From NCBI GenBank assembly GCA_035772785.1, contig JAOCPU010000001.1:3100001-3164000 (forward strand): a stretch of 64,000 nt of DNA. Direction: 5' to 3'. This document shows positions 1 through 20,753 of this stretch, in pieces (position 1 is the stretch's first letter; each line of letters starts with the position of its first letter). The translations under genes and the position numbers were made by a program. This DNA is from Phlebiopsis flavidoalba (lineage: Eukaryota > Basidiomycota > Agaricomycetes > Polyporales > Phanerochaetaceae). The notes beneath the pieces were generated by a model that searched no databases, had not been told where the DNA came from, and saw nothing but the letters and a program-made list of their open reading frames with translations.

Positions 1-1006
1 GGCTCGAGTTCATGGGCGATGGTGAGTGTGATTCCTATTCGACGCAAAATTGTGCTAATAAGGGGACAGCGCTGCTCGATCTTGTCGTCATGCGGTATCT
101 CTACAACAAGTTCCCAGCCGCCACTTCGGGCCAGCTCTCGTGGGCGCGCTCACGCGCCGTCTGCGCGCCCGCGCTGGCCCTGGTGGCCGTGAACGTGCTG
201 GGGCTGCACAAGCCGCTACTGATCAACAACGTCGAGCTGAGCATGGCGATCAGCAAGTACATTCCGATTCTGAAGGAGACGACATGCGAGGAGATCATCC
301 ACCACGGCTGGAAGCACGACCCGCCCAAGGCGATCAGCGACGTCCTGGAGAGCATCCTCGGCGCCGTGCTCGTCGACACGCACTACGATTTCGAGAAGAC
401 GAGCGTGGTCGTCGAGAATGCTCTCCGTGGGCTGCTTGAGGTCCTTACGCCGGACATGCCGCGCGACCCCGTTTCGGAGCTCATGGTCTGGACTGCGCGC
501 CACGGGTGCATGAAGATCAGCTTCCGGTGCGTACCTTACGATCAGACATGAAAGCCGCTCGCTCACGCGGCGTACAGAAAATCACAGAGCATTTCAACAA
601 TGAAGAGGAACGACAGCATGTCGATCATCGTGCACGACTTTGCGGTGGTGGGGCCTATCCCCGCGGCAAACATTTCGCTCGCCAAGGGTCTCGCGGCCGA
701 GCGCGCGCGCCAGGTCATGGACGACCCCGAGAGCCCGTACTACCTCCCTAAAATATGCGACTGCAAGACCCAGCATGAAGATCACCCGCCAGTGGACCAC
801 GACGCGGAGGAGAAGAAGCGACTGGACGACGAGACAGAGGCCGGGTTCGCCGCGCTTGCCCGCGCGGTGTTGGCCGAGGTACAGCCTCTCGAAGTGAAAC
901 CTGCAGACGATAGCTCGAGCAATGCAGAAGACGAAGACGAAGATAATGAGGACGATGATATTGACGGTACCCGATTGCGATTGAAGATTTTATGGTTCTC
1001 GGCTGA
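1..1006 (+). CDS. Dicer-like ribonuclease III, C-terminal part
   Basis: This is the 3' end of a Dicer gene; the 5' part lies outside the window. Dicer cuts double-stranded RNA into small RNAs for Argonaute. Joining exon 1-21 to the exon from 70 (intron 22-69) gives the RNase III signature EFMGDALLDLVVMRYLY, followed by NKFP and then SDVLESILGAVLVD around 330-375, which carries the second pair of acidic catalytic residues. A second intron at 527-577 (GTGCGT to CAG) joins KISFR to KSQSISTMKRND. The C-terminal part holds IIVHDFAVVGPIPAAN, a possible vestige of a dsRNA-binding domain, and an acidic Asp/Glu tail around 900-965. A missing C near 969 shifts the frame; comparison with the second copy (17.6-18.1 kb) puts the true stop at 1004-1006. 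Assignment to RNase III of the Dicer type is firm; which Dicer paralogue it is cannot be told. Confidence 0.85.
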
Positions 1007-2228
1007 TACTCTATGCAAATTCGACTCCCAGCTCAATACTATCCCCAGGAAATACCGTATCGTGAACGTATTTAATCTGTGTCTCGGTAGTGACTTTGCC
1101 TTACCTTCGGATTGTATTGTATTCGAAAACGTGTATCACCTTGCCTCTCAAGCTGTCTCTCGAGCCCCGTAATTCGTGTATGTGGTAACAAGCGATAAAG
1201 CTGTATGTGGATTATGACATCATCTGTATTGGCTTGGCACTAGTACAACCTCAAACTTGGCCTGCTTCTGAGTCCACCACTACCAAGACCCGAGACGTCC
1301 GACATTGTATTTTATGCACCGTTCATGCTAGAGTAATCAGAAATGTCAACTGCACTGAATAGTGCCCTACTGCGTTTTCGAATACTTATAATTTCCGGGA
1401 GTATTTCCGAGTTTCGAGAACAGAGCCGTCTCGTCTTTCAGACTCTAGAAAACCTTAGCACTGCAGTTCCTACACCACTGCCAGACCCGCCAAGGACCGT
1501 CACTACGAAACGTACCCAGAACTCTCCTCCGTGACGCAGCAGACACCCCCGATGGGTCTACTTACATCCATCACATCGGTAGTCGGGCGGTTGCCGCTCG
1601 CAAACTATTCAAACAGCAAGACCTAACAAGACATGCCCTGACTCACCACACTTAAATCCGGTTAAGATGAAGCAGCAATGGATTTGTGGATAACTCACCA
1701 AACTCAAAACGATGACGGTCGTGTCGGCAATGTCGTCCCACGCTCGCAGAGTGGGCTTTACACTAACTCATACTCTTATTCTTTCCATTTTATTTTCGGT
1801 CTTATTTGACCTCAAGCTCAGAGCTGTTGGCCTGTTGTGCCGCCGAAAGACAATTTGAAGACAGAGTGAGATAGTCAGATTGGCCGGATTGATTGGATTG
1901 ATCTTACTACTCAAACCGTCTCTTATTTTCACTCCAACGCATACAATCCTTCGGTCGCCTACCACAGATATTGACCTACGTCGAGGCAAGGTCAACGCCC
2001 CGCGCCAGCCCGAGCTTGTCGAATAAGTTAACGAGGATGCATCTTCGGACGCTTCACTGACATCCGCGTGCGCGGGGCCCTAAATCCGGAAGGTGTGTAG
2101 TAATGGGCCCAGCCGAAGCATCCCCAGAAGCGTGATTCTGATGATTGGAGACACTTCCATAAGTGCGAGTCATCCCGTGCAGTGCTAATCATCATCTTTC
2201 ACCTCGACCGACGAGGATCGTTCCTAAG
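1007..2228. other. Intergenic, Dicer to AhpD-like gene
   Basis: I see no conserved coding region here. The stretch is AT-richer than its surroundings and should hold the Dicer 3' UTR and the promoter of the AhpD-like gene. It is almost perfectly preserved in the second copy at 18067-19290. Confidence 0.5.
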
Positions 2229-3131
2229 ATGAGCGATCTTCTTGCCCCTGCCGATCTCATGAATCGTCTCAAGTCGCTCTACCCACTCCGAAACACTCTC
2301 CGTGGCTCAGACAGCGTGCTGCAGAATCCGTGGTACATCATCTCCGCAGTTGCGTACAGCTCGAGCAATCGCCCAGAGGGAGTACCACTTGTGTTCCAGC
2401 ATGTATTGGCGGACTTGAAGAGGGCACAGACGGAACAGCAGACCCCGGCAGAGACAGCACACAAGGAGCAGCTGTTGCTGGCGCGAAGAGTACGAGAAGC
2501 AATTCTGAAAGGGGGGCTGTTTATGTGGATATTCGAGGGTATGTAGCGCCACATGCGTAGGAGATTGTGCTGATGCAAGTTTGATAGGCGATTAACAGCT
2601 TCATTGCACTTCATGAGGTCATGCCGGAAGAGTTGCGCGACAAGAAGACTCTGAGGTGTGTGTTCTCTCAATCGATGCGTTCTTTATGTCTAACAGGAGT
2701 ATCAAGAGATCCGTCTGTGACCATGGAAGAGTACGTACGCAACGGCGAGAAAACTGTTTCGGGCAATGTACCGCGACACCGCGGACAAGGTGCAGAACCT
2801 CCTCGACGAAGTCTACCCGGACATGGGTATGTCCTTCTCCTCCCTGATGCCTTATACTTCTCATTCTTCGTATAGGGTGGTTCTCTAACACGGTCGGGTA
2901 CGGTATCACCTATGGGGCGACGGATGTCTTGACACAGGTCGAAATCTCGTACGTGCTCGTTGCGGCGCTGATCTCGATGGACACACCCCGCCAGATCGGT
3001 TGGCACCTTGCCAATGCAATGCATGGAGGCGCAAGTAGAGAGAAGAAGCGCAGGCAGTACGCCAGATTTCCATTGAAGTGGCAGAGAAATCAGGAATCAA
3101 GTGGAAAGAAGGCGTTCCCGAACTCAGCTAA
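2229..3131 (+). CDS. AhpD-like / carboxymuconolactone decarboxylase family protein, copy 1
   Basis: The protein starts MSDLLAPADLMNRLKSLYPL and belongs to the fungal AhpD-like group (CMD fold, all-helical, often with peroxidase or decarboxylase activity; the substrate is unknown). Four exons are supported: 2229-2538, 2588-2655, 2707-2826 and 2876-3131. The splices give KTLR/DPSVTMEEYVRNGE and YPDM/GWFSNTVGYGITYG. The conserved IGWHLANAMHGG near the C-terminus is intact in this copy. An extra T near 2520 and an extra A near 2753 break the frame, and a two-base surplus near 3040 displaces the last 30 residues, which read correctly only in another frame (QISIEVAEKSGIKWKEG). I do not see a canonical CxxC pair, so AhpD-type redox activity is doubtful. 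It lies downstream of Dicer on the same strand, 1.2 kb away. Confidence 0.75.
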
Positions 3132-3635
3132 AAGATGCCTGCGTTGTACTGCCGCCTATTACTCCTACTCAATTGAGGCTTCGACTTTGAGATTTAGATT
3201 TTGAAAGATCCGTGAAGGTTCAAATACTGGGATGGGCCGAGTGCTCGTGGAAAGAATTCGGCCATGGGAGAATAAGATTCTGAGTCTGCGCTGGCTTTGA
3301 TATCTTGAAGCCTGCCAAGATGATAGAGCATAGATTCGTCGGCGGTAATATCAGGAATTGCTTTGTCTCCAAGTCTGCGAGTGCTTTGTACTGCCTGTTA
3401 TGCAAAGATTGTACATGACCGTCGAGTTTCAACCTGTGCCACCCAAGGTAGGGCCAAAACCAGGGTGCATTACCGCCAATAAGTCCACGAATGGTAATTC
3501 TTCAGGACTTCTTTATGATAAGTCCCCGGTTAATCCACAACGAGGTAATCAAGTGCAAAGTTGTGGTAATTGCTGTTGTTTGCAAACCGCCAGTACAAGG
3601 ACCCTCCCTCAGGGCGACATCCTCTATGCTCAGCT

Positions 3636-8540: not shown

Positions 8541-9030
8541 TTACATCAAATTTCCGGAGCTTTTTGCGACCCGCGTCGCCTCCCCTCGCAGCCGCCGTTT
8601 GCCCACATCAACCCGGTAGGCTCCCCTGAGCCCACCCAGCCCGCTATCGCGGTGCTCCCGTCTCTCCCACGCATCAAATGCTTCATCCGAGAGAGGCTCG
8701 AAGCGAGTCTCTCCCGTAGTGAAGCGTCTGATGAGCTTGTTGAGAAGCTCTAGTGACCAAATCCCGCTCGGCGCAGTGCCGAACGGGATTTCGGTCTCAG
8801 GCCAGCCGCGCAAGGTGACACGGTATTTGCATGTCACCTTGGGTGTGCCGTAAAATGATGTGGTTGTCCACATCATTTTTGCGTTGGCAACACCGCTTGC
8901 CTCGGCTACAAAAATTACATGTTAGACTAGAGCCGATGCCATATTTTTGAATAATGTCTGATTTGCCAGATCTGAGCTTACCAAGTTTGTGATTGACAAG
9001 CTCGACGTACTCTGTACGCCGGGCTTTCAA
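8541..9030 (-). CDS. Hypothetical protein of an expanded Agaricomycete family
   Basis: The downstream exon (8541-8876) is open and contains YRVTLRGWPETEIPFG, then LNKLIRRFTTGETRFEPLSD and a basic C-terminus. An upstream exon around 8970-9030 gives ARRTEYVELVNHKLG, with an intron between them (donor near 8980). The 'K-Y-x-V-x-L-x-G-W-P' motif with a following linker and 'W/F-x-x-L-s-d-E' block resembles a repetitive family of proteins of unknown function that I recall from Agaricomycete genomes. That match is from memory and not from a search. It is the only conserved-looking gene inside the 13.9-kb inserted block. The N-terminus is not resolved. Confidence 0.45.
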
Positions 9031-11178
9031 ACACTCCCGGTATCCTGACCCTGTGGGAATGATGCACAGAAATTAGTGGCGTGCTCAGCAGCTCAACCGA
9101 GACTGCAAACGATTGATTGGAAACTCACCGGCAAGATTCTGCATCCTCGTTGCACCTTCTGAACAGGTGTTCGAGGAGTGCATTGCGAAGTAGTTATAGT
9201 ATCACCATTGGCTGTGGTAATATCTTGAGGTAGTTTCATCTTAGAGATGTTTGCGCAGAGTTTATAGTAGATATATGACCGGAGATGATTATGAATGAAG
9301 AGAACCACTTAGAAGCTTGAGACTTGTTCTGCTTCAAGCTCAAGTTAAAGACAACGTTGGACAATATTCACACCATTTATAGCTTGCACAGTCTCTCTCA
9401 CAACGGCATCAGCTCAGGCCAAATTTCGTGAAGGATACCGTGACGCCAGCTTAGGGTTTCTGTCTCAAAGCGTCAAACACAGTGCTCGAGGCGCAATACT
9501 CTCCGATGCCACGCCGAATTGAAATTTGATGTCAATACGAAATAGAGCGTTGAAGAGTGAAGCGAGTGAAGAGCGGATGTCAGATGAAGCCCGGGCAGTC
9601 GGGTCGCGGTCAAGCAAATTGGAATCAGTGTCAGACCACACAGGCAGGCAGCGGCGCGCAGATCCGAGGGTGAAGACGGTTTTTTCCCAACGCTGCGAAA
9701 TTTTGAATCGGCGTGTCCATCTTCCGTGTTCCAGGCCAGGAACTCCGGTAGCGTCAAGCGGAGACGTTCCCACTCGACTTGAAGCTTCGAATACTCACGA
9801 GTCACCGCTGATCAACTTTCCTCTGGAAGCATTGAGCTTGGGATTGAGACTTGGAACTCTTGTCTCACCGCAGCTATGCTGCTGCCGTATTATCAAAGGT
9901 ATACATTTGTGAACTGAGACCAGAACTTGGCCGCTACACAGTGAATTCAGCTTCCGTCCGTGTCTTGAGGTGTTGGGACGCGAAGGGCCGTCCAGATGCA
10001 GCAGAAACGGCATTCAACACCAGCGATGTGTGAATTCACCACCTCTAAGGGGTACCGATCCTGCAGATGACGCGTGATCATCAAACTCGGGACTCAATGA
10101 GTCACGATCATATGGTCAATGGGAGTCTAGCTCGCGCCTCGCGTTTTGAGCCGTAGTACGCTCACATGCACGTCTGACCCCTACGTTGAAGAATCAATAC
10201 CATGTTATCCCTCCCTAGGAATCGAATTCCGCTTGGATTACATGGCATCAGTTGCCTCTATCGTACACGCCAACACCAGCGTGCGAGCCTGGTCCGAGCT
10301 GAGCATTATACTACCGGCGGCGGTGCCATGAAAGGAGTGAACACATCTGGAAAGTCATGTTAGAGTGAGGTATTGGCACCATAGCGGAGGGCAGACGACT
10401 CGCCGATACCGTCTCGACGGTTGTGAGAGTTGAACGTGAGTGATCAAGGCAAACCCGTGGCTGCGATGTCAGCGTTGTTACATAATATCATCACAAACGC
10501 CACAATGGCTTCAATCTCGTTCTGCAGTCCGAGTCGTTGCAGCATAGCATAGGGTGTAGCCATTGAGTGGTTATTTACATCTATCCAATGTCATAATATT
10601 CATACATGCATTGAGAATACAGGTCCCATACACCCCACTACGAAAACTTGCGACGAGGCTCGAAATGAGCTGTAATGCTTATCGTAGCGCCGCTGCGCAT
10701 GGACAAGACACTGTCAGGGAAAGAAAATGAGCGAGTCAACGGTCGGCAGTGTCAAGTGCGAACAGATCCGCGCCTTGCTCGCTTATTCCAGCCTGCAATT
10801 GAGACGGATATTGTGCGTGCCGGATTTGTCCAGAAAGTGCGAATTTTACACTTCTCCTCGCCCCAGTCAGCGGGCAACCCTCCTGTCCGGAAATACGACG
10901 AGCCTCGGCGAGCGATGAGAGAACACCGGTTTGGCGCTTGCTCGCGTGTGCCTAGAGAGATTGCAATCATTGCACCCCCGTTTCGACGAAGTTACGGAAT
11001 CGCGAACTGAGACCCAACGGCGCTGCCCCCGTTGAGTCTTCGCTTGCATTTCCGTAGTTCGACTCTTGACGGCGGCGCTTGGAGGACGAACGGCATCGGC
11101 GTCACACGGCGGCGGAATTGTGCGCGGCGACACCCAAGTGAGCCCGTCGATGATCATGAAACACCTGTCGCGCGAGGG
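9031..11178. other. No gene recognised
   Basis: I found no conserved protein or RNA gene in these 2.1 kb. Several short frames are open (9465-9805 minus, 10675-11010 plus) but they show no motif and no codon pattern that I trust. Confidence 0.4.
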
Positions 11179-11184
11179 TATAAA
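11179..11184 (+). promoter_or_regulatory. TATA box upstream of a CT-rich leader
   Basis: A TATAAA is followed from about 11205 to 11300 by a strongly pyrimidine-rich plus strand (runs of CCTCC, CCCCTC and CTCTCCC) ending in CTCTCAAGC. TATA plus a CT-rich tract is the usual form of a highly expressed fungal promoter. The intron-like array starting at 11399 would then be its transcript. Confidence 0.4.
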
Positions 11185-11398
11185 TGGGCAGGTGAGCACG
11201 GCTCACATCCTCCATCCCCTCTCCGTCCTTCACCTGTTCCCCTCCAAACTCTCCCATCACCCACATAACTCTTTGCTCTCAAGCTTCCTCTCCCGCACAA
11301 CCACCGTGGACGAAGACACTGGCTACCCACTGCACACGCAAAACCTCGCCGGTGAAACTGACCGGACTTGTGAAGGCCGGTCGGAACGGTACAAACCT

Positions 11399-12320
11399 GT
11401 AAGTATCGTTTGAACGGCAATGAAAACTGCACTTACTTCTGATACTGACTTCTAGAAGCTGTTTCGATCGCGTTCAATGCGGCCCGTTCAAGCATTTCAA
11501 AATGTAAGTGATCTGATCATCACTTACTAGTGAGTTCCGTTTGAACGGCGCTGACGGCGTTCTTTGGCCTTTCTACTGACTTTCGACACAGCCCGTTCAA
11601 CTTCTGAACGCGTAAGTAGCGGGATCACTGTCTCCGTTCAATGTCTCACTTACCCATTCTTATCTTATACAGGACTCTGCGGGGTAAGTATTATTTGAAC
11701 GGCAAAGAGAGTCGTACTTACTTTCAATACGCGGCCCGTTCAAATTCGTTGAACGAAAAGGCCTCTTGGGCTTAATTACCGGTAAGTCTCGTTTGAACGA
11801 TGATAACTTTTCTACTTACTTTGTATACTGACTTTGTAGACTCTGTTTCTCTTATGTTTGGCGCAGCCCGTTCGAGCTCGTTGACTGCGTAAGTAATTGA
11901 ATTCTCGTCTCGTTCACCGCTTTACTTACTCCGTTCGATGCATACAGAACGAGTCTGCGTATTGACTGTCAGTCTGCAAGTTCAAACGATTGAATTGCTT
12001 GTAAGTCACGCTATGCCACTGACTACTGAGCACAGCGAACTAATTTCTATGATAGCACATTTCATTACCGTGCCCGCGTATACTGACCACGCATTACAGC
12101 GATTTGAATGGACGTGGGTCTGCGGTCACTAACGGCTGGCTGTTATGGGTTACAGGTCAGTTCTGCTGCGATAAACGGCCTTGTGCGGCCAGTGAGGCCA
12201 TCTCGTCAGTCGCGGTTCAACCGTTAACGACCCCGGCTTAGGCTCCGTTCATCTTGGATCTGCGAACCATGGTAAGTCGCAAATTTTGTATCTAGGTTTC
12301 AGAGCCACTTACAACAAGTT
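11399..12320 (+). repeat. Array of intron-like units with micro-exons
   Basis: GTAAGT donors occur at 11399, 11504, 11612, 11684, 11782, 11889, 12001 and 12272. Most are followed after 12-30 nt by ACTTAC (11431, 11522, 11648, 11716, 11814, 11924, 12307) and then by an AG acceptor, several with CTGAC in front (TACTGACTT...AG). The units also share GTTTGAACGGC or a near match after the donor (11408, 11539, 11692, 11791) and GCCCGTTCA around the exons. If spliced, exons would be only about 10-50 nt and no reading frame runs through them. A non-coding, intron-dense transcript or propagated intron elements (introner-like) would fit. ACTTAC can also be read as a weak branch site. Confidence 0.55.
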
Positions 12321-15300
12321 GATAGGGTGTGATTACTGCTGTAAAACGTGACGGCGAGGTCTTCTTACCATACCCTACGTCAACGCCGTTGATATCAGGT
12401 AAGCTCGCGTACCCGCTGTCCTCGTCATGTGTATTAATTCTGTCCCTGCGAAGCCGACTGCCGGCACGTTAGAATCACCCGCGCACTGAAAGGTTGAGCG
12501 CGACGGGGTATTCCTGTGAGTTGTAAGTCTGTGGGTCAGCGTCGTTGTCCATTGATCTGGCTAATTCCGCTGTCGCGTAGTCTATGGCCAGATTTGTTCC
12601 CAACGCGGCATTCAATAACTGGACGCCTTTTGTGCTTTCCCGACAGCCTGTATTGGTTAGTTCCTGTTACACGTCATCCCCGGCAATACTGACCGGCTTC
12701 TTATAGCGCCTTCGTATGTGTCAATACACCGCGCGCCGTACCCGTGAACGGTTCCCACGTCCTGGCCGTTTCGCTGCTGGAACAACGCACATGACGGCGA
12801 CCCCGTCGTAGCCACGCGCTGCGACGTGTCTTGACATCGCGAGTACGTCGTGCATCCGAGTCTGGCAACTCCTGGTGTCGCCGTTGTCGCGGTCCGCACG
12901 TCGTGTTGTGTTGCGTCGAGTGCCGGTCCTCGCATACATGGGCTGTTTGGTCAGCGATCTGCGTTCACGTCCCAGGTCTTCAAATTAAAACTGTGTATTG
13001 GGCTAATGTAATTACATGGGGTGTAGTACTGTAGTACACAAGTAAGAAAGTCTGCAACGGCGGTCGAGGACGAGTAGACTTACCTTTAGGTCGACGACGC
13101 CATTGTGATCGCCTTCAACCGCGATCTCAACGATCTACGCCCTCACCCCGATTGACGCATTCAGGGCCCCGCCGCCTGCGCGCGAGACGATCGCGTGCCG
13201 AATGTTTTGATTCCGCACTGAAAGAAATATATCTAGGAGAGTAAGTCGTCAATCATTTTTGAGTATACCAGAAGACTACTTACTGTTAATTTATGTCTCG
13301 TCAGCCCGTTGATAAGTACGGACGTCGGTGTCATGGCTATTGCCGTCCTATTGCCGTCGCGATGTCGCCGCGGTTCGACGTCGGTGAGTCACGTCTTGAT
13401 GTTGATGTTGTCTTGTGTCCGTATTGACTGGGTTGGTAGTGTACGTGTGCTGGCCGACGTTGTCTCGTTTCACGGTCGTACTTTCAGTGCACGTATAACA
13501 ACTAATCCAAGTGCATTAGTAAGCGGTCCACCGTAGTGCGAAAAACGAACGCTTACCTTGAGGGTATTACTTGGTGAGGCGGCCTTTCTTGTCATTTTGA
13601 TTGTTGGCTAACGTTCCCGTTGGCAGGCGTTTGTCACCAACGTCAATGCGGTGCGGATCAAACGTGACCGCTTTCGTGGTAGGTTCGAACCCTTGGTGTC
13701 TCGCCCATGCTAATCTTCATCGCGCAGATACAATGCGGCGACGTCGCCGCATAGTGCGAGACGACGCGGCCATCTCCTTTCGAATGGAGTCATTACAGTT
13801 CATTCCTGGGTACGTCGTGTATATGGTTGCGAGTCTTCGCCAGTGGCGTACTCTACTAGTCCTTGCGTGCGTTGTGGTGGCCTTGTGCTGATTACTTGGC
13901 CTACGCTGAGCGCCATGGCCATCGCCGTATGCCTATCATGTGCGTCCGATTTACGTCTCGTTGCTGACATGGGTGCGCAGATCATCGAGGGCCGTTTTCG
14001 AGCAACCGCTGCTCGACTTCAAGTAACACCTCCGCTCACGCTCGCTTCTTGCTATGCCGCACGGTAAGTCGTCCGTTGTTTACTGTTCGTTGATTGACAC
14101 CTTGCTATAGGCACCTGCGTAATGGGAAGTCCACGTTAGTTGGGTCATTTGTCATTTCGTATCAAGCTACGTACTCACCGGCCCCCTGTGCCACTCCACG
14201 TCATGAACAGGAGCAGCCTTCCAGCCGCTCACTACCCCACGTCGAGGTCGGCACCATACGACCGCACGTCCGTTACGCAACCGTCGTCTGGCACATAGAG
14301 TCCATGCACCGTCGACGTGCATGAATCTTTGCCGTCATTTGTACGTCGTATGCTGGGCCTTTGCATCACTATACTCAAGCGATTAGCTGCCCGCAGCGCC
14401 CTATTTGCAACGTTGACATACCTTGGTAAGTAACCGCTACTCTTCCTCCATCCCGCTCTGATTTCATTTTGTTGGTGGTCGCAGCCTCGCCAGCCGCGAC
14501 GGGTTTGACGGAGGTGTTCGCATGATGAGACGTTCGTCTCGCGAGCCACACGCCAGTGTGTGTTCGCGACGACGATAGCCTCCATGGTCTGCGTGGGCTC
14601 CTTCCTTGCGGTTCGCACACGTGTGACGTATGCAAAGAGTGCCTGGAACAAATGTGCTGTGAGTTCTCGACTGAACATTTTGCAACGTTGAAACTCACCA
14701 ATGACTCGCAGCGGCCCTTGAGGTCTGCGTAGATTCCTCGCCAAACGCGTTTCGGCACGCGTGTAAGACTCTAGAGTCTAAACGGATACATTGTAAGTTC
14801 TTGAATTTAAAATGGGGACGTAAGCACTCACCGTCGTCGTAGCGCGCCGACCGCATATGTCACGCATCGTCTTGTAGTCGTGATACGTGAGTCTGCGCGC
14901 ACTCTACGCAGGTCCAGTCGCAATAACTGGACTTGGGTAGCTTGCGCGAGAGCGCGACCTGGACGCAAGGTAAGCCCCAAGTTCGCGTGACGAGTGCGTT
15001 GGGACTCACCCGAGATCTGCAGCTCAAGGACAGCGCACATCGTACGCGTCGTTCCGCCAGTCCGCAGTGGGCTGCTGGCCATCTTTCACGCGTCGCCCCG
15101 CTATCCGTAGTGTTGCGGGGCTGGTCTCTTCGGCGCACGATGCGCAGGGTTCGCTGATGGGCACGGGCGGTGGATTGCGCCAGGTGAGTGGAGTAGATTT
15201 TTGTGCGGATAACCACGGCGCTGACTGCTTGTTGCGGAGCCAGGAACGGCTTCGTTCTACAGTCTTCGCGTGCGTGGCAAGTCGAATGCCAGGCAAGGGC

Positions 15301-15907
15301 TTTGGTTGTCCATCGGAGCGTGCGATCCAGGTAAACTGCCTGAATGTGGCAGCCCAATCAGTCTCCGACGGGCACGCAAGCGTGGCAAGACTTACCGGTC
15401 GAAGGCGGTGGTCTATTGGCGGCATAACCTGTCGCGCCGTGCTGGGTTGCGCGTCGTTCGGCACGTCTCTTGGTTCGACGCGCGACGCGCATGAGCTCGC
15501 GCGTTGTCGAGCGGTCTGGGCGAGACTTCAAACATGCGGCGCGTTCGCCCGATGCTGGAGCAACATAAACCAGTCAGTCAGAGGATAACAAAAGAGAAAG
15601 ATCTCACTTACCTCCATGGTAAGTGTTTGAATTTCATTTCCGAGATTGCGCTGGTGACTGCGAACGACTAGAGCTCGATGTTGGACGTGGCCCGCGTGAC
15701 GGTAGGCTGCCCGGGCGCCGGTCGCGGAGCGCAAATCTCTGCTCGCGGCGTAAATGTGTGCAACATCGTGGTGGACGGCGTTTCTATGCCGAGCACAAGA
15801 CCGTCAGCGCCGCGCAAGAACGAACAGGTGAGCCAGAACTTACCTCTACCTTGATCCCCGCTGCTGGGGCCCGCGCCGCAACGATGGTAGGCTGGTGATG
15901 GCGACGC
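12321..15907. other. No conserved gene; scattered intron-like signals
   Basis: Donor-like GTAAG and facing CTTAC sequences continue through this region, for example 13240-13284, 13519-13556 and 15826-15845, as do possible introns (14064-14111). Open frames on both strands (such as 14232-14758 minus and 15067-15588 plus) carry no motif I recognise. The DNA stays rich in CG dinucleotides. Confidence 0.4.
13733..13752. repeat. Perfect 20-bp palindrome
   Basis: The sequence ATGCGGCGACGTCGCCGCAT equals its own reverse complement. It ends abruptly on both sides. It could be a dimeric protein-binding site or a cruciform; no partner gene is visible. Confidence 0.9.
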
Positions 15908-16345
15908 GCTGCGGTTGGGCCAAGTTGTGTCGTCGTCGTCGTCCAGAATGGCCGGGCGCCGCGTGAGCCAGCGTCTTCTGTTCACGTCTCAGTGAGAGTC
16001 TTGCGTGCTGGTCGCCGTGCGTCGGCCGCTGCTCGTTGTGCCGTTAAAAAGACGGCGCGTGACGTGCTGCGGTTGGGCCAAATCACGCCGTCGTCGCCCA
16101 GAACGGCTCGACGTCGGGCGGTGCAGTGTCCCGAGGGGACAGTCTTGTGTGCCGATCGCCGTGCGGTCGGCCGCTGCTCGTTGTGCCGTCAAGGAGACCG
16201 CGCTGCAGCTGGGCCGAATCACGCCGTCGTTGCCCAGAACGGCTCGGCGTCGGGCGGTGCAGTGTCCCGAAGGGGCGGTCTCGTGTGCCGGTTGCTGTGT
16301 GTCGGCCGCTGCTCGTCGTGCCGTCAAGGAGACGGCGCGCCCTTG
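15908..16345. repeat. ~140-bp tandem repeat, three units
   Basis: The anchor GCTGCGGTTGGGCCA starts at 15908 and 16066, with a variant at 16202. A second anchor, GTCGGCCGCTGCTCGT, starts at 16021, 16166 and 16301. Units are therefore about 135-158 bp long and roughly 85-90 percent alike by eye. Frames are open on both strands across the units and show no known domain. Confidence 0.8.
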
Positions 16346-16564
16346 TGTGATGTCCCGTCTTGCGAGTGAGATCCTCAATGCGCGGCCGACGCGCCCTGTA
16401 GTCTTTGCGACACGCCGGCCCTTGTGTGAGATCGGCCTCGCCGCCGTGCTCGTCGCTGTCTTGCACGACGTGGCCTGTGATCTTGCGACACGCGGCGGCA
16501 TACGGGCACGTCGGCCTATGTCCCATCTCGCTCGCCCGCGAGTGTCTGAGTGCCTTGCTCGACG

Positions 16565-16632
16565 GCGGCAGTGACGCTCAGACGCAAGGGCGGGCTGAGC
16601 AATATATATGTGCCCGCCGTCCTCACTGCCGC
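16565..16632. repeat. Hairpin element H1
   Basis: The outer arms GCGGCAGTGA (16565-16574) and TCACTGCCGC (16623-16632) are perfect complements. Inside lie GCTCAG (16576-16581), GGCGGGC (16589-16595), CTGAGC (16595-16600) and GCCCGCC (16612-16618), which pair in the crossing order a-b-a'-b'. The element is 68 nt long, similar to a microRNA-like precursor. It is the first of three related copies. Confidence 0.6.
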
Positions 16633-16715
16633 AGCGCCCGTCTTCATTGTCGACTCCGTGGTCGGCCTGTTCGGTGTTCCGCGGCTCATCCTGCTCGCAT
16701 ACGTGCGTGGGACAA

Positions 16716-16790
16716 CGGCGGCAGTGGTGCTCAGAGATCGCAAGGGCGGGCTGAGCGATACATTTGTGCCCGCCGGATTCACTGCCGCCG
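16716..16790. repeat. Hairpin element H2
   Basis: The outer arms CGGCGGCAGTG (16716-16726) and CACTGCCGCCG (16780-16790) pair over 11 bp. The inner elements GCTCAG (16729), GGCGGGC (16745), CTGAGC (16751) and GCCCGCC (16768) repeat the order seen in H1. Confidence 0.6.
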
Positions 16791-16907
16791 TTGTGCTGTC
16801 TTTGCCTTCGCCGTCGATGCCTTCGCCGTCGATGTCTTCGGTGTCGCCGTCGACGTTGGTGTCTTTGCGCCGCGCCGGGCAATGCGCGTGCTTCGACCTG
16901 GCTTGAC

Positions 16908-16978
16908 GACGGCAGTGACATGCTCATGCGCGAGGACCGCACGAGCTCAATATGTTCGCGGTCGTACTCACTGCCGTC
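16908..16978. repeat. Hairpin element H3 with compensatory changes
   Basis: The outer arms GACGGCAGTGA (16908-16918) and TCACTGCCGTC (16968-16978) pair over 11 bp. The inner stem is GACCGC (16935-16940) with GCGGTC (16958-16963), where H1 and H2 have GGCGGGC with GCCCGCC: both arms changed and pairing was kept. GCTC (16922) and GAGC (16943) keep the crossing a-a' pair. Confidence 0.6.
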
Positions 16979-17555
16979 GCCGTTCCCCTTGATCCCGCCG
17001 CGGTCGTCGTGGTCGGCGCCGCCGTCGATGAAGGTGTTGGGTGGATGGGGACATGGTGGTTGCTCGCAAAGGGCGTCGGGCAAGGCGCCAGCCAAATCGA
17101 GCAAAGTCCGGAGCGCCCATCGACGGAACGGGCTTGTTCGCGTTCATCGAGCATCGAACCACCTCTGCTGAGTCTGAACATCTTGACAGCTTGCCCCACG
17201 TCACCATCGAGCTTCGATGACAGATGTGTGAAGTGTGTCCGCGCCCCTCGCACCATCGGAAGAGGGTCACGGTCTCCGAGGGTGACGACCGACCCAGGGG
17301 GCCGTTAGTTCACGGACTCGGAAATGGAGATATTTATTGTAAGTAACACATCTATTTCCATATTTTGTGGCTGCTAATAACTTCGTTCCACAGGTGAACT
17401 GCGCTCGCAGCGCCACCATCGGCCTTGGTGCAAATGAGTGCAGCGCACGCCTCCGCCACGCTCGCGACGTCCTTTGCGCACATCATACGCACCCGCGCCG
17501 TACACTGCAGTGCCGCCAGCATGAAAGATGCGTGGGCTTCGACGCTGAATCGCAG
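16979..17555. other. Right end of the inserted block
   Basis: No conserved gene is seen. A good intron lies at about 17339-17394 (GTAAGT to CCACAG, with CTAAT as branch-like site). The 160 bp after it are CpG-rich and run directly into the second copy of the Dicer end, but do not encode RNase III sequence. Confidence 0.4.
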
Positions 17556-18066
17556 CCACGGGTGCATGAAGATCAGCTCCCGGTGCGTACCTTACGATCA
17601 GACATTGAAGCCGTTCGCTCACGCAGCGTACAGAAAATCACAGAGCATTTCAACAATGAAGAGGAACGACAGCATGTCGATCATCGTGCACGACTTTGCG
17701 GTGGTGGGGCCTATCCCCGCGGCAAAACATTTCGCTCGCCAAGGGTCTCGCGCGGCCGAGCGCGCGCGCCAGGTCATGGACGGACCCCGAGAGCCCGTAC
17801 TACCTCCCTAAAATATGCGACTGCAAGACCCAGCATGAAGATCACCCGCCAGTGGACCACGACGCGGAGGAGAAGAAGCGACTGGACGACGAGACAGAGG
17901 CCGGGTTCGCCGCGCTTGCCCGCGCGGTGTTGGCCGAGGTACAGCCTCTCGAAGTGAAACCTGCAGACGATAGCTCGAGCAATGCAGAAGACGAAGACGA
18001 AGATAATGAGGACGATGATATTGACGGTACCCCGATTGCGATTGAAGATTTTATGGTTCTCGGCTG
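17556..18066 (+). pseudogene. Dicer C-terminal fragment (copy 2)
   Basis: This holds only the last Dicer exons, without either RNase III domain, so it cannot encode an active enzyme. The last intron is kept (GTGCGT near 17583 to CAG near 17633). Relative to copy 1 it has an extra A near 17726, an extra CG near 17754 and an extra G near 17782. It lacks the C deletion near the end, so the proper C-terminus IAIEDFMVLG and its stop at 18064-18066 are readable here. Confidence 0.85.
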
Positions 18067-19290
18067 ATACTCTATGCAAATTCGACTCCCAGCTCAATAC
18101 TATCCCCAGGAAATACCGTATCGTGAACGTATTTAATCTGTGTCTCGGTAGTGACTTTGCCTTACCTTCGGATTGTATTGTATTCGAAAACGTGTATCAC
18201 CTTGCCTCTCAAGCTGTCTCTCGAGCCCCGTAATTCGTGTATGTGGTAACAAGCGATAAAGCTGTATGTGGATTATGACATCATCTGTATTGGCATGGCA
18301 CTAGTGCAACCTCAAACTTGGCCTGCATTCTGAGTCCACCACTACCAAGACCCGAGACGTCCGACATTGTATTTTCTGCACCGTTCATGCTAGAGTAATC
18401 AGAAATGTCAACTGCACTGAATAGTGCCCTACTGCGTTTTCGAATACTTATAATTTCCGGGAGTATTTCCGAGTTTCGAGAACAGAGCCGTCTCGTCTTT
18501 CAGACTCTAGAAAACCTTAGCACTGCAGTTCCTACACCACTGCCAGACCCGCCAAGGACCGTCACTACGAAACGTACCCAGAACTCTCCTCCGTGACGCA
18601 GCAGACACCCCCGATGGGTCTACTTACATCCATCACATCGGTAGTCGGGCGGTTGCCGCTCGCGAACTATTCAAACAGCAAGACCTAACAAGACATGCCC
18701 CTGACTCACCACACTTAAATCCGGTTAAGATGAAGCAGCAATGGATTTGTGGATAACTCACCAAACTCAAAACGATGACGGTCGTGTCGGCAATGTCGTC
18801 CCACGCTCGCAGAGTGGGCTTTACACTAACTCATACTCTTATTCTTTCCATTTTATTTTCGGTCTTATTTTGACCTCAAGCTCAGAGCTGTTGGCCTGTT
18901 GTGCCGCCGAAAGACAATTTGAAGACAGAGTGAGATAGTCAGATTGGCCGGATTGATTGGATTGATCTTACTACTCAAACCGTCTCTTATTTTCACTCCA
19001 ACGCATACAATCCTTCGGTCGCCTACCACAGATATTGACCTACGTCGAGGCAAGGTCAACGCCCCGCGCCAGCCCGAGCTTGTCGAATAAGTTAACGAGG
19101 ATGCATCTTCGGACGCTTCACTGACATCCGCGTGCGCGGGGCCCTAAATCCGGAAGGTGTAGTAATGGGCCCAGCCGAAGCATCCCCAGAAGCGTGATTC
19201 TGATGATTGGAGACACTTCCATAAGTGCGAGTCATCCCGTGCAGTGCTAATCATCATCTTTCACCTCGACCGACGAGGATCGTTCCTAAG
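18067..19290. other. Intergenic, second copy
   Basis: This is the duplicate of 1007-2228, with a few indels and substitutions. No gene was recognised. Confidence 0.5.
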
Positions 19291-20188
19291 ATGAGCGATC
19301 TTGCCCTGCCGATCTCATGAATCGTCTCAAGTCGCTCTACCCACTCCGAAACACTCTCCGTGGCTCAGACAGCGTGCTGCAGAATCCGTGGTACATCATC
19401 TCCGCAGTTGCGTACAGCTCGAGCAATCGCCCAGAGGGAGTACCACTTGTGTTCCAGCATGTATTGGCGGACTTGAAGAGGGCACAGACGGAACAGCAGA
19501 CCCCGGCAGAGACAGCACACAAGGAGCAGCTGTTGCTGGCGCGAAGAGTACGAGAAGCAATTCTGAAAGGGGGGCTGTTATGTGGATATTCGAGGGTATG
19601 TAGCGCCACATGCGTAGGAGATTGTGCTGATGCAAGTTTGATAGGCGATTAACAGCTTCATTGCACTTCATGAGGTCATGCCGGAAGAGTTGCGCGACAA
19701 GAAGACTCTGAGGTGTGTGTTCTCTCAATCGATGCGTTCTTTATGTCTAACAGGAGTATCAAGAGATCCGTCTGTGACCATGGAAGAGTACGTACGCAAC
19801 GGCGAGAAACTGTTTCGGGCAATGTACCGCGACACCGCGGACAAGGTGCAGAACCTCCTCGACGAAGTCTACCCGGACATGGGTATGTCCTTCTCCTCCC
19901 TGATGCCTTATACTTCTCATTCTTCGTATAGGGTGGTTCTCTAACACGGTCGGGTACGGTATCACCTATGGGGCGACGGATGTCTTGACACAGGTCGAAA
20001 TCTCGTACGTGCTCGTTGCGGCGCTGATCTCGATGGACACACCCCGCCAGATCGGTTTGGCACCTTGCCAATGCAATGCATGGAGGCGCAAGTAGAGAGA
20101 AGAAGCGCAGGCAGTACGCCAGATTTCCATTGAAGTGGCAGAGAAATCAGGAATCAAGTGGAAAGAAGGCGTTCCCGAACTCAGCTAA
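19291..20188 (+). pseudogene. AhpD-like / CMD family protein, copy 2
   Basis: It has the same four-exon layout as 2229-3131. Four bases are missing just after the start (MSDL then a shift), so translation from the normal ATG would stop after about ten codons. It resumes from a Met in MNRLKSLYPL at 19317. The two insertions that break copy 1 are absent here (KGGLLCGYSR and NGEKLFRAMYRDTADKVQNL are in frame). An extra T near 20056 destroys the conserved IGWHLANAMHGG. Each copy is thus broken at different places, which fits sequencing error as well as decay. Confidence 0.7.
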
Positions 20189-20753
20189 AAGATGCCTGCG
20201 TTGTACTGCCGCCTATTACTCCTACTCAATTGAGTCTTCGACTTGAGATTTAGATTTTGAAAGACCCGTGAAGGTTCAAATACTGGGATGGGGCCGAGTG
20301 CTCGTGGAAAGAATTCGGCCATGGGAGAATAAGATTCTGAGTCTGCGCTGGCTTTGATATCTTGAAGCCTGCCAAGATGATAGAGCATGGATTCGTCGGC
20401 GGCAATATCAGGGATTGCTTTGTCTCCAAGTCTGGGAGTACTTTGTACTGCGTGTTATGCAAAGATTGTACATGGCCGTCGAGTTTCAACCTGTGCCACC
20501 CAAGGTAGGCCGCCAAAACCAGGGTGCATTACCGCCAATAAGTCCACGAATGGTAATGATTCAAGACTTATTTATTATAAGTCCCCGGTTAATCCACAAC
20601 GAGGTAATCAAGTGCAAAGTTGTGGTAATTGCTGTTGTTTGCAAACCGCCAGTACAAGCACCCTCCCTCAGGGCGACATCCTCTATGCTCAGCTTCCTCC
20701 GCACGCTTTGAAGTTACCAAACTACAACTGGCGCGTACAATCAGAACCACAGC
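20189..20753. other. 3' flank of copy 2 and promoter of the GW/WD40 gene
   Basis: No gene was recognised. Up to 20694 this is duplicated sequence and is its most diverged part. The last 60 bp before the ATG at 20754 are unique. Confidence 0.4.

Follow-up and report, generated by a model that had tools for sequence, protein, structure and literature searches.

H-type pseudoknot domains are found in SAM-II and preQ1 riboswitches and in the telomerase RNA core. Short, dispersed palindromic repeats are otherwise familiar as MITE or fold-back elements, and ribozymes are often situated in repeats. HDV-like ribozymes are reported among fungal motifs (PMC5640933), and the hairpin criteria for fungal milRNAs given in PMC9757828 rule out both secondary stems and large loops within the duplex. 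Three hairpins in a 64,000-nt stretch of the Phlebiopsis flavidoalba genome (hereafter, the window) can be compared with each of these systems. As in H-type pseudoknots, two of their predicted helices cross (a-b-a'-b'), leaving a short junction and two crossing loops. Unlike H-type pseudoknots, they are closed by an outer helix of 10-15 pairs and repeated within a noncoding repeat, their crossing helix lacks covariation support, and they have no match in Rfam. HDV-like ribozymes also have helices that cross in a compact GC-rich domain, but here no hairpin lies between b and a' or between a' and b', an extra helix encloses the domain, and again Rfam provides no match. The hairpins resemble fungal milRNA hairpins in length and in having an outer stem, although the outer duplex is short and gives way to a one-sided loop. 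Like MITE or fold-back elements they are short, dispersed, and palindromic, but the copies found lie inside larger common repeats with a T-block hairpin nearby.

No Rfam family matched the hairpins at gathering scores anywhere in the window. Prokaryotic contigs contained no match to the hairpin pattern, and neither they nor viral contigs contained one to the T-block pattern. IMG/VR gave three exact matches to the hairpin pattern, which our covariance model R1 did not support (only match there E 0.69); exact patterns would miss diverged copies. Within that scope (viral and prokaryotic contigs searched with exact patterns), no copy turned up beyond this genome. The literature examined contained no description of the motif. 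Lineage-specific structured RNAs in the intergenic DNA of eukaryotes are hard to recognize when sequence similarity is the only guide. With about 15 recognizable copies in one genome, a domain that is repeated, covarying, and possibly knotted offers a tractable test case for telling functional RNA from relic. The family described here probably represents either a new structured RNA or the relic of a mobile element, rather than a microRNA.

Architecture of the three hairpins

All three hairpins of the preliminary description were recovered when the sequence was re-read; coordinates are given on the forward strand. H1 (16563-16634) is closed by the outer helix P1 (16563-16574 with 16623-16634, 10 continuous pairs), within which lie a (16576-16580), b (16589-16595), a' (16596-16600), and b' (16612-16618). 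H2 (16712-16794; covariance model match 16716-16790) and H3 (16907-16979) share this architecture. The outer arms, given earlier as 10-11 perfect pairs, comprise 10 continuous pairs in H1, 15 perfect pairs in H2 (16712-16726 with 16780-16794), and 12 perfect pairs in H3 (16907-16918 with 16968-16979). The arm sequence assigned to H2 was mistaken: GGCAGTGG is present there and not GGCAGTGA.

Inside P1, the order is a (GCTCA), loop, b, a', A/T-rich loop, b'. The loop between a and b measures 8-12 nt and has CGCRAG at its end in 11 of 14 copies, the A/T-rich loop between a' and b' measures 10-15 nt, and the spacer between b and a' is 0-2 nt; entire copies range from 71 to 83 nt (covariance model rows). 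As first described, the inner stem changed on both arms, reading GGCGGGC/GCCCGCC in H1 and H2 and GACCGC/GCGGTC in H3, such that three of the six common pairs differ two-sidedly. GCTC/GAGC, which in H3 makes up a four-pair helix a, does interleave with b as a-b-a'-b' in all three hairpins. Within the window this covariation is a single comparison, of H1 and H2 (88% alike over 50 nt) with H3, and it is strengthened by copies elsewhere in the genome.

Relative to dinucleotide shuffles, fold energies on the forward strand gave z-scores of -2.5 (H1), -5.7 (H2), and -4.5 (H3), with -2.8, -5.6, and -3.9, respectively, on the reverse strand. The whole 671-nt region folded only mildly better than its shuffles (z -1.8, 20 shuffles).

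Paired changes among copies in the genome

DNA and pattern searches of the same genome (36.28 Mb in 129 contigs) revealed seven further hairpin loci, or eight with that of the window: L002 (C35:111.2 kb), L003 (C120:6.1 kb), L004 (C1:3.0567 Mb), L005 (C11:452 kb), L006 (C86:26.6 kb), L041 (C11:422 kb), and L063 (C101:39.2 kb). Each locus bears one to three hairpins. Eleven copies were aligned by MAFFT without structure (alignment A1), and R1 comprised P1 and b only, with helix a omitted. Searching 86 kb, R1 identified 15 copies at E ≤ 1e-4, all at the eight loci. The preliminary description had proposed such a search of this genome for further covarying copies, and the outcome bore it out: four of the 15 were outside the training set, two in L041, the 5'-truncated L002:1483-1549, and one in L063. 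Over 198 kb from 45 sources, these four had E values of 3.3e-8 and 4e-6 (L041), 7.5e-6 (L002:1483-1549), and 2.3e-5 (L063), and R1 gave 29 matches at E ≤ 5, consisting of the 15 copies, 12 opposite-strand readings of the same copies, and two weak matches, L006:1179-1258 (+, E 0.09) and L005:1875-1946 (-, E 2.6). Among 38 loci drawn in by pattern matches, L063 was the sole match, the other 37 having none even at E up to 5 in the 198 kb; L065-L070 and L078 had no R1 match. L063 and L041 as queries yielded no new locus in the genome, nor did a 3' pattern search. Copy counts from this genome are lower bounds, with 54 of 61 places from one pattern search and 43 of 76 from another, outside known loci, left uninspected; within these bounds no free-standing hairpin copy was found.

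In A1, 90.3% of 238 cells pair, versus 86.0% in shuffles (0/500 as high) and 24.8-53.2% in slid controls. Two-sided cells in P1, a, and b together numbered 9, versus 3.7 in shuffles (0/500 reach it). With 15 rows fitted to R1 (A3, P1 and b), pairing reached 92.9% with 11 two-sided cells (0/500 shuffles), although A3 slid by +3 still paired 80.0% of cells because of GGCGGC-like repeats. The structure was drawn from H1. We also registered 14 rows by hand, dropping the truncated row; this table is biased towards pairing because inserted bases were omitted from six rows. There, 88 of 96 cells of b pair, with 7 two-sided changes against 2.5 in shuffles (2/5000 as high). For P1, 153 of 168 cells pair with 4 two-sided changes against 2.0; P1 alone is not clearly above shuffles (309/5000 as good for pairing and 379/5000 for two-sided changes). 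Two-sided changes fall at three pairs of b and at two or three of P1. Two of the three such pairs in b depend on the H3/L2c lineage, and pair 2 of b is more variable (G-C 7, A-T 4, G-T 1, A-C 1, A-G 1). RNAalifold predicted P1 and b, with an unfavorable covariation term (+0.44). With the helices taken together, compensatory changes are above the controls, as in a conserved structured RNA, where the controls are shuffles that ignore the kinship of copies.

Helix a behaves differently. In the hand table 62 of 70 of its cells pair, without a two-sided change, and 1074 of 5000 shuffles pair as well. All five pairs form in 9 of 14 copies (two of them after omitting one inserted base) and at least four in 11 of 14; pairs are lost in copies L2b, L2c, L4a, and L41b, and one is lost in H3. 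The one two-sided cell of helix a in A1 is probably due to shifted columns, and RNAalifold predicted no a/a' helix. On the hand-table cell counts, support is good for b and modest for P1, and for a it consists of conserved complementarity only. The claim that structure rather than sequence is kept therefore holds for b and P1, which retain folding through paired changes, but not convincingly for helix a.

The preliminary description had further envisaged a pseudoknot or two alternative folds. The a-b-a'-b' order is kept and its crossing complementarity is conserved, as expected of an H-type pseudoknot, which makes a knot plausible; the covariation that such a pseudoknot would also display in its crossing helix was absent from the 14 rows. 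Since helix a lacks convincing covariation, the case for a pseudoknot depends on conserved complementarity. When a fold was forced to hold either a or b, the two energies came within 6 kcal/mol of one another on both strands in each of the eight copies tested, which fits either a knot or a switch.

The surrounding repeat

The hairpins are embedded in low-copy, multi-kb, apparently noncoding repeats. In the window, the repeat spans 13364-17553 on the forward strand, which is the extent common to L004, with its right end cut at the join to a copy of window 499-3635; 13364 is not an established left end because similarity to C120 reaches further left. Counterparts of this stretch occur in pieces at 69-82% (L004), 76-77% (L002), and 78-88% (L003/C120) identity, and a second group of loci (L005, L041, and L006) has the core. 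All parts named here are on the forward strand. Tandem GC-rich units, partly common to L003, lie upstream of the hairpins at 15903-16339 with a spacing of 135-158 nt. The T block (16466-16497) has a short stem around CCTGTGATCTTGCGACACG (19 nt from 16474), and a second, diverged T-like stretch at 16384-16422 was seen by eye and missed by the T-block pattern. The pattern places a T block close to the hairpins at seven of the eight loci, the window locus included, and a diverged form was seen by eye in L063. Downstream, 17018-17133 is common to L004, and its part 17110-17129 (GGAGCGCCCATCGACGGAAC) is also recognizable in L005 and L041, which have the downstream block in common. An intron-like stretch of 55 nt follows at 17339-17393 (GTAAGT...GCTAATAAC...CACAG); all of its signals recur in L078, and L004 keeps those of the branch and the 3' end while lacking GTAAGT.

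Other copies of the repeat are partial. L078 (G000:C1:2589001-2591000) contains the intron-like stretch and the downstream part without an R1 match, and further pieces are found at C74:14075-14246 and C1:3093146-3093290; because such partial copies exist, the modules of the repeat appear to recombine. The window also carries a 3.1-kb direct duplication of 98.5% identity (499-3635 and 17555-20694). At 17553/17555 the hairpin repeat joins the copy of 499-3635, which is where similarity to L004 ends.

Sequence comparison between loci suggests that the fold pattern is mostly better kept than the surrounding DNA. In six of seven locus pairs, hairpins are 69-89% identical versus 49-62% for flanks, which include poorly alignable stretches. 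Hairpin and flank identities are 89% and 55% for the window locus and L002, 84% and 62% for L005 and L041, 78% and 58% for L005 and L006, 75% and 49% for L041 and L006, 69% and 50% for the window locus and L006, and 81% and 53% for the window locus and L005. The window locus and L003 show no preference for hairpins (82% and 83%). The T block, at 58-91% identity, is not consistently better kept, a spread due in part to its differing place between groups.

We rejected protein coding as an explanation. None of the six unspliced frames stands out, since several, on either strand, are conserved to a similar degree, and copy lengths of 71-83 nt do not advance in steps of three. The hairpins do lie within long open frames on both strands (e.g., 15992-17143, minus). 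Pfam searches of window 9001-17560 in six frames returned no domain. No transposase or reverse-transcriptase domain was found in that stretch, in L003, L066, L067, and L068 (six frames), or in the forward frames of L006. In L068, a single peptidase match fell below the threshold (E 0.0084).

Intron-like stretches, about 55 nt long and bearing branch-type signals, exceeded Markov resampling on the forward strand (10 versus 2.7, 2/200 as high) and on the reverse (7 versus 1.4, 1/200), with overlapping starts counted. As the excess occurs on both strands, these stretches do not fix the strand. Three on the minus strand lie within the repeat, at 15340-15395, 15555-15611, and 15784-15843. Wobble cells read on the forward strand comprise 20 A-C and 8 G-U, several common by descent, and A-C on this strand equals G-U on the other; the excess of A-C weakly hints at the minus strand. 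Opposite to this hint, it is the forward strand that carries the intron-like stretch kept in other copies.

Competing explanations

From sequence comparison, we put the chances at about even that the hairpins constitute a structured RNA domain, with one to three copies at each locus of a low-copy noncoding family. Such a domain, about 72 nt long, would be an H-type pseudoknot closed by P1, with almost no gap between its helix a of 4-5 pairs and its helix b of 6-7 pairs. The domain and the nearby T-block hairpin, set within diverged noncoding repeats, would probably belong to a long noncoding transcript or to its decayed copies, the repeats presumably having spread by segmental duplication. We infer that the domain would act as RNA, with a and b forming together, and might be where a protein, or a different part of the same RNA, docks.

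The main rival of this reading, which we consider unlikely but weigh seriously, is that the hairpins are a DNA-level feature, namely inverted repeats of a decayed non-autonomous mobile element (protein-binding or cruciform sites), whose matched changes would stem from symmetry and recombination between arms. In its favor are the dispersed, diverged multi-kb repeats with recombining modules, the outer arms of up to 15 perfect pairs, the folding signal similar on both strands, and the decay of some copies (L002:1483-1549, L2b, and, by eye, a broken copy in L004). Against it, the hairpins are interior to the repeat as far as it was traced, the stretches scanned (window 9001-17560, L003, L066, L067, L068, and the forward frames of L006) contain no transposase or reverse-transcriptase domain, and neither the conserved crossing pair a/a' nor the loop CGCRAG follows from simple symmetry.

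It is rather improbable that the copies are neutral relics, in which a GC-rich region was duplicated segmentally to a low copy number and the hairpins seem conserved only through copy age, gene conversion, or alignment. The 98.5% duplication joins the repeat at this very place, the window locus and L003 are equally alike within and outside the hairpins, and independent compensatory events are few. However, flanks between group A and group B loci (window locus with L006 and with L005) are 50-53% alike when hairpins are 69-81% alike, and R1 recognized copies on which it was not trained.

Precursors of milRNAs processed by Dicer, the reading suggested by the size noted in the preliminary description, are very unlikely. 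The size of about 70 nt agrees, and the end of a Dicer gene lies about 15 kb upstream. This gene enters the window (1-1169) from the upstream stretch L070, which matches Dicer_dimer and, weakly, RNase III; window 3-548 matches RNase III. In H1-H3, however, both helices of the P1+b fold are short (10-15 and 6-7 pairs), with a one-sided loop between them. Because 14-17 nt on the 5' side and 4 nt on the 3' side are unpaired between P1 and b, the hairpins have no continuous duplex of about 20 pairs, and they contain crossing complementarity. The computed folds thus depart from the criteria of PMC9757828, under which about 20 pairs form an unbranched duplex free of large loops. The sole Rfam match over a hairpin in 16000-17400 at E up to 10 was mir-5881 on H2, at 15.1 bits against a cut-off of 87. 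The Dicer neighbor was observed at one locus, that of the window, and we treat its proximity as coincidence, given the 15 kb from the end of the gene to the hairpins and the fact that the adjoining 3.1-kb copy arose by a duplication of its own.

A self-cleaving ribozyme of a new class, which a compact and possibly knotted domain, a conserved unpaired loop, and tandem repetition might bring to mind, is hardly to be expected given that no Rfam ribozyme matched 16000-17400 at E up to 10 and that the inner hairpins of the HDV fold are absent from this domain.

Returning to the structured RNA reading, CTTGCG in the T-block loop (16482-16487) is, by eye, complementary to CGCRAG in the a-b loops of H1-H3, with G-U for CGCGAG. 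The two may form a loop-loop contact, judging by complementarity without compensatory support. An ambitious and improbable extension is a new multi-domain RNA class, in which P1-closed pseudoknots and T-block hairpins would pair through CGCRAG and CTTGCG into a compact tertiary fold with a dedicated function in this lineage, possibly catalytic or protein-recruiting.

Upstream of the group-B hairpins, a second hairpin-like stretch lies at 1875-1946 (-) of L005 (GCGAGAGC...GCTCTCGC) and at 1179-1258 (+) of L006. These two weak matches may represent a distant copy of the hairpin or another structured part.
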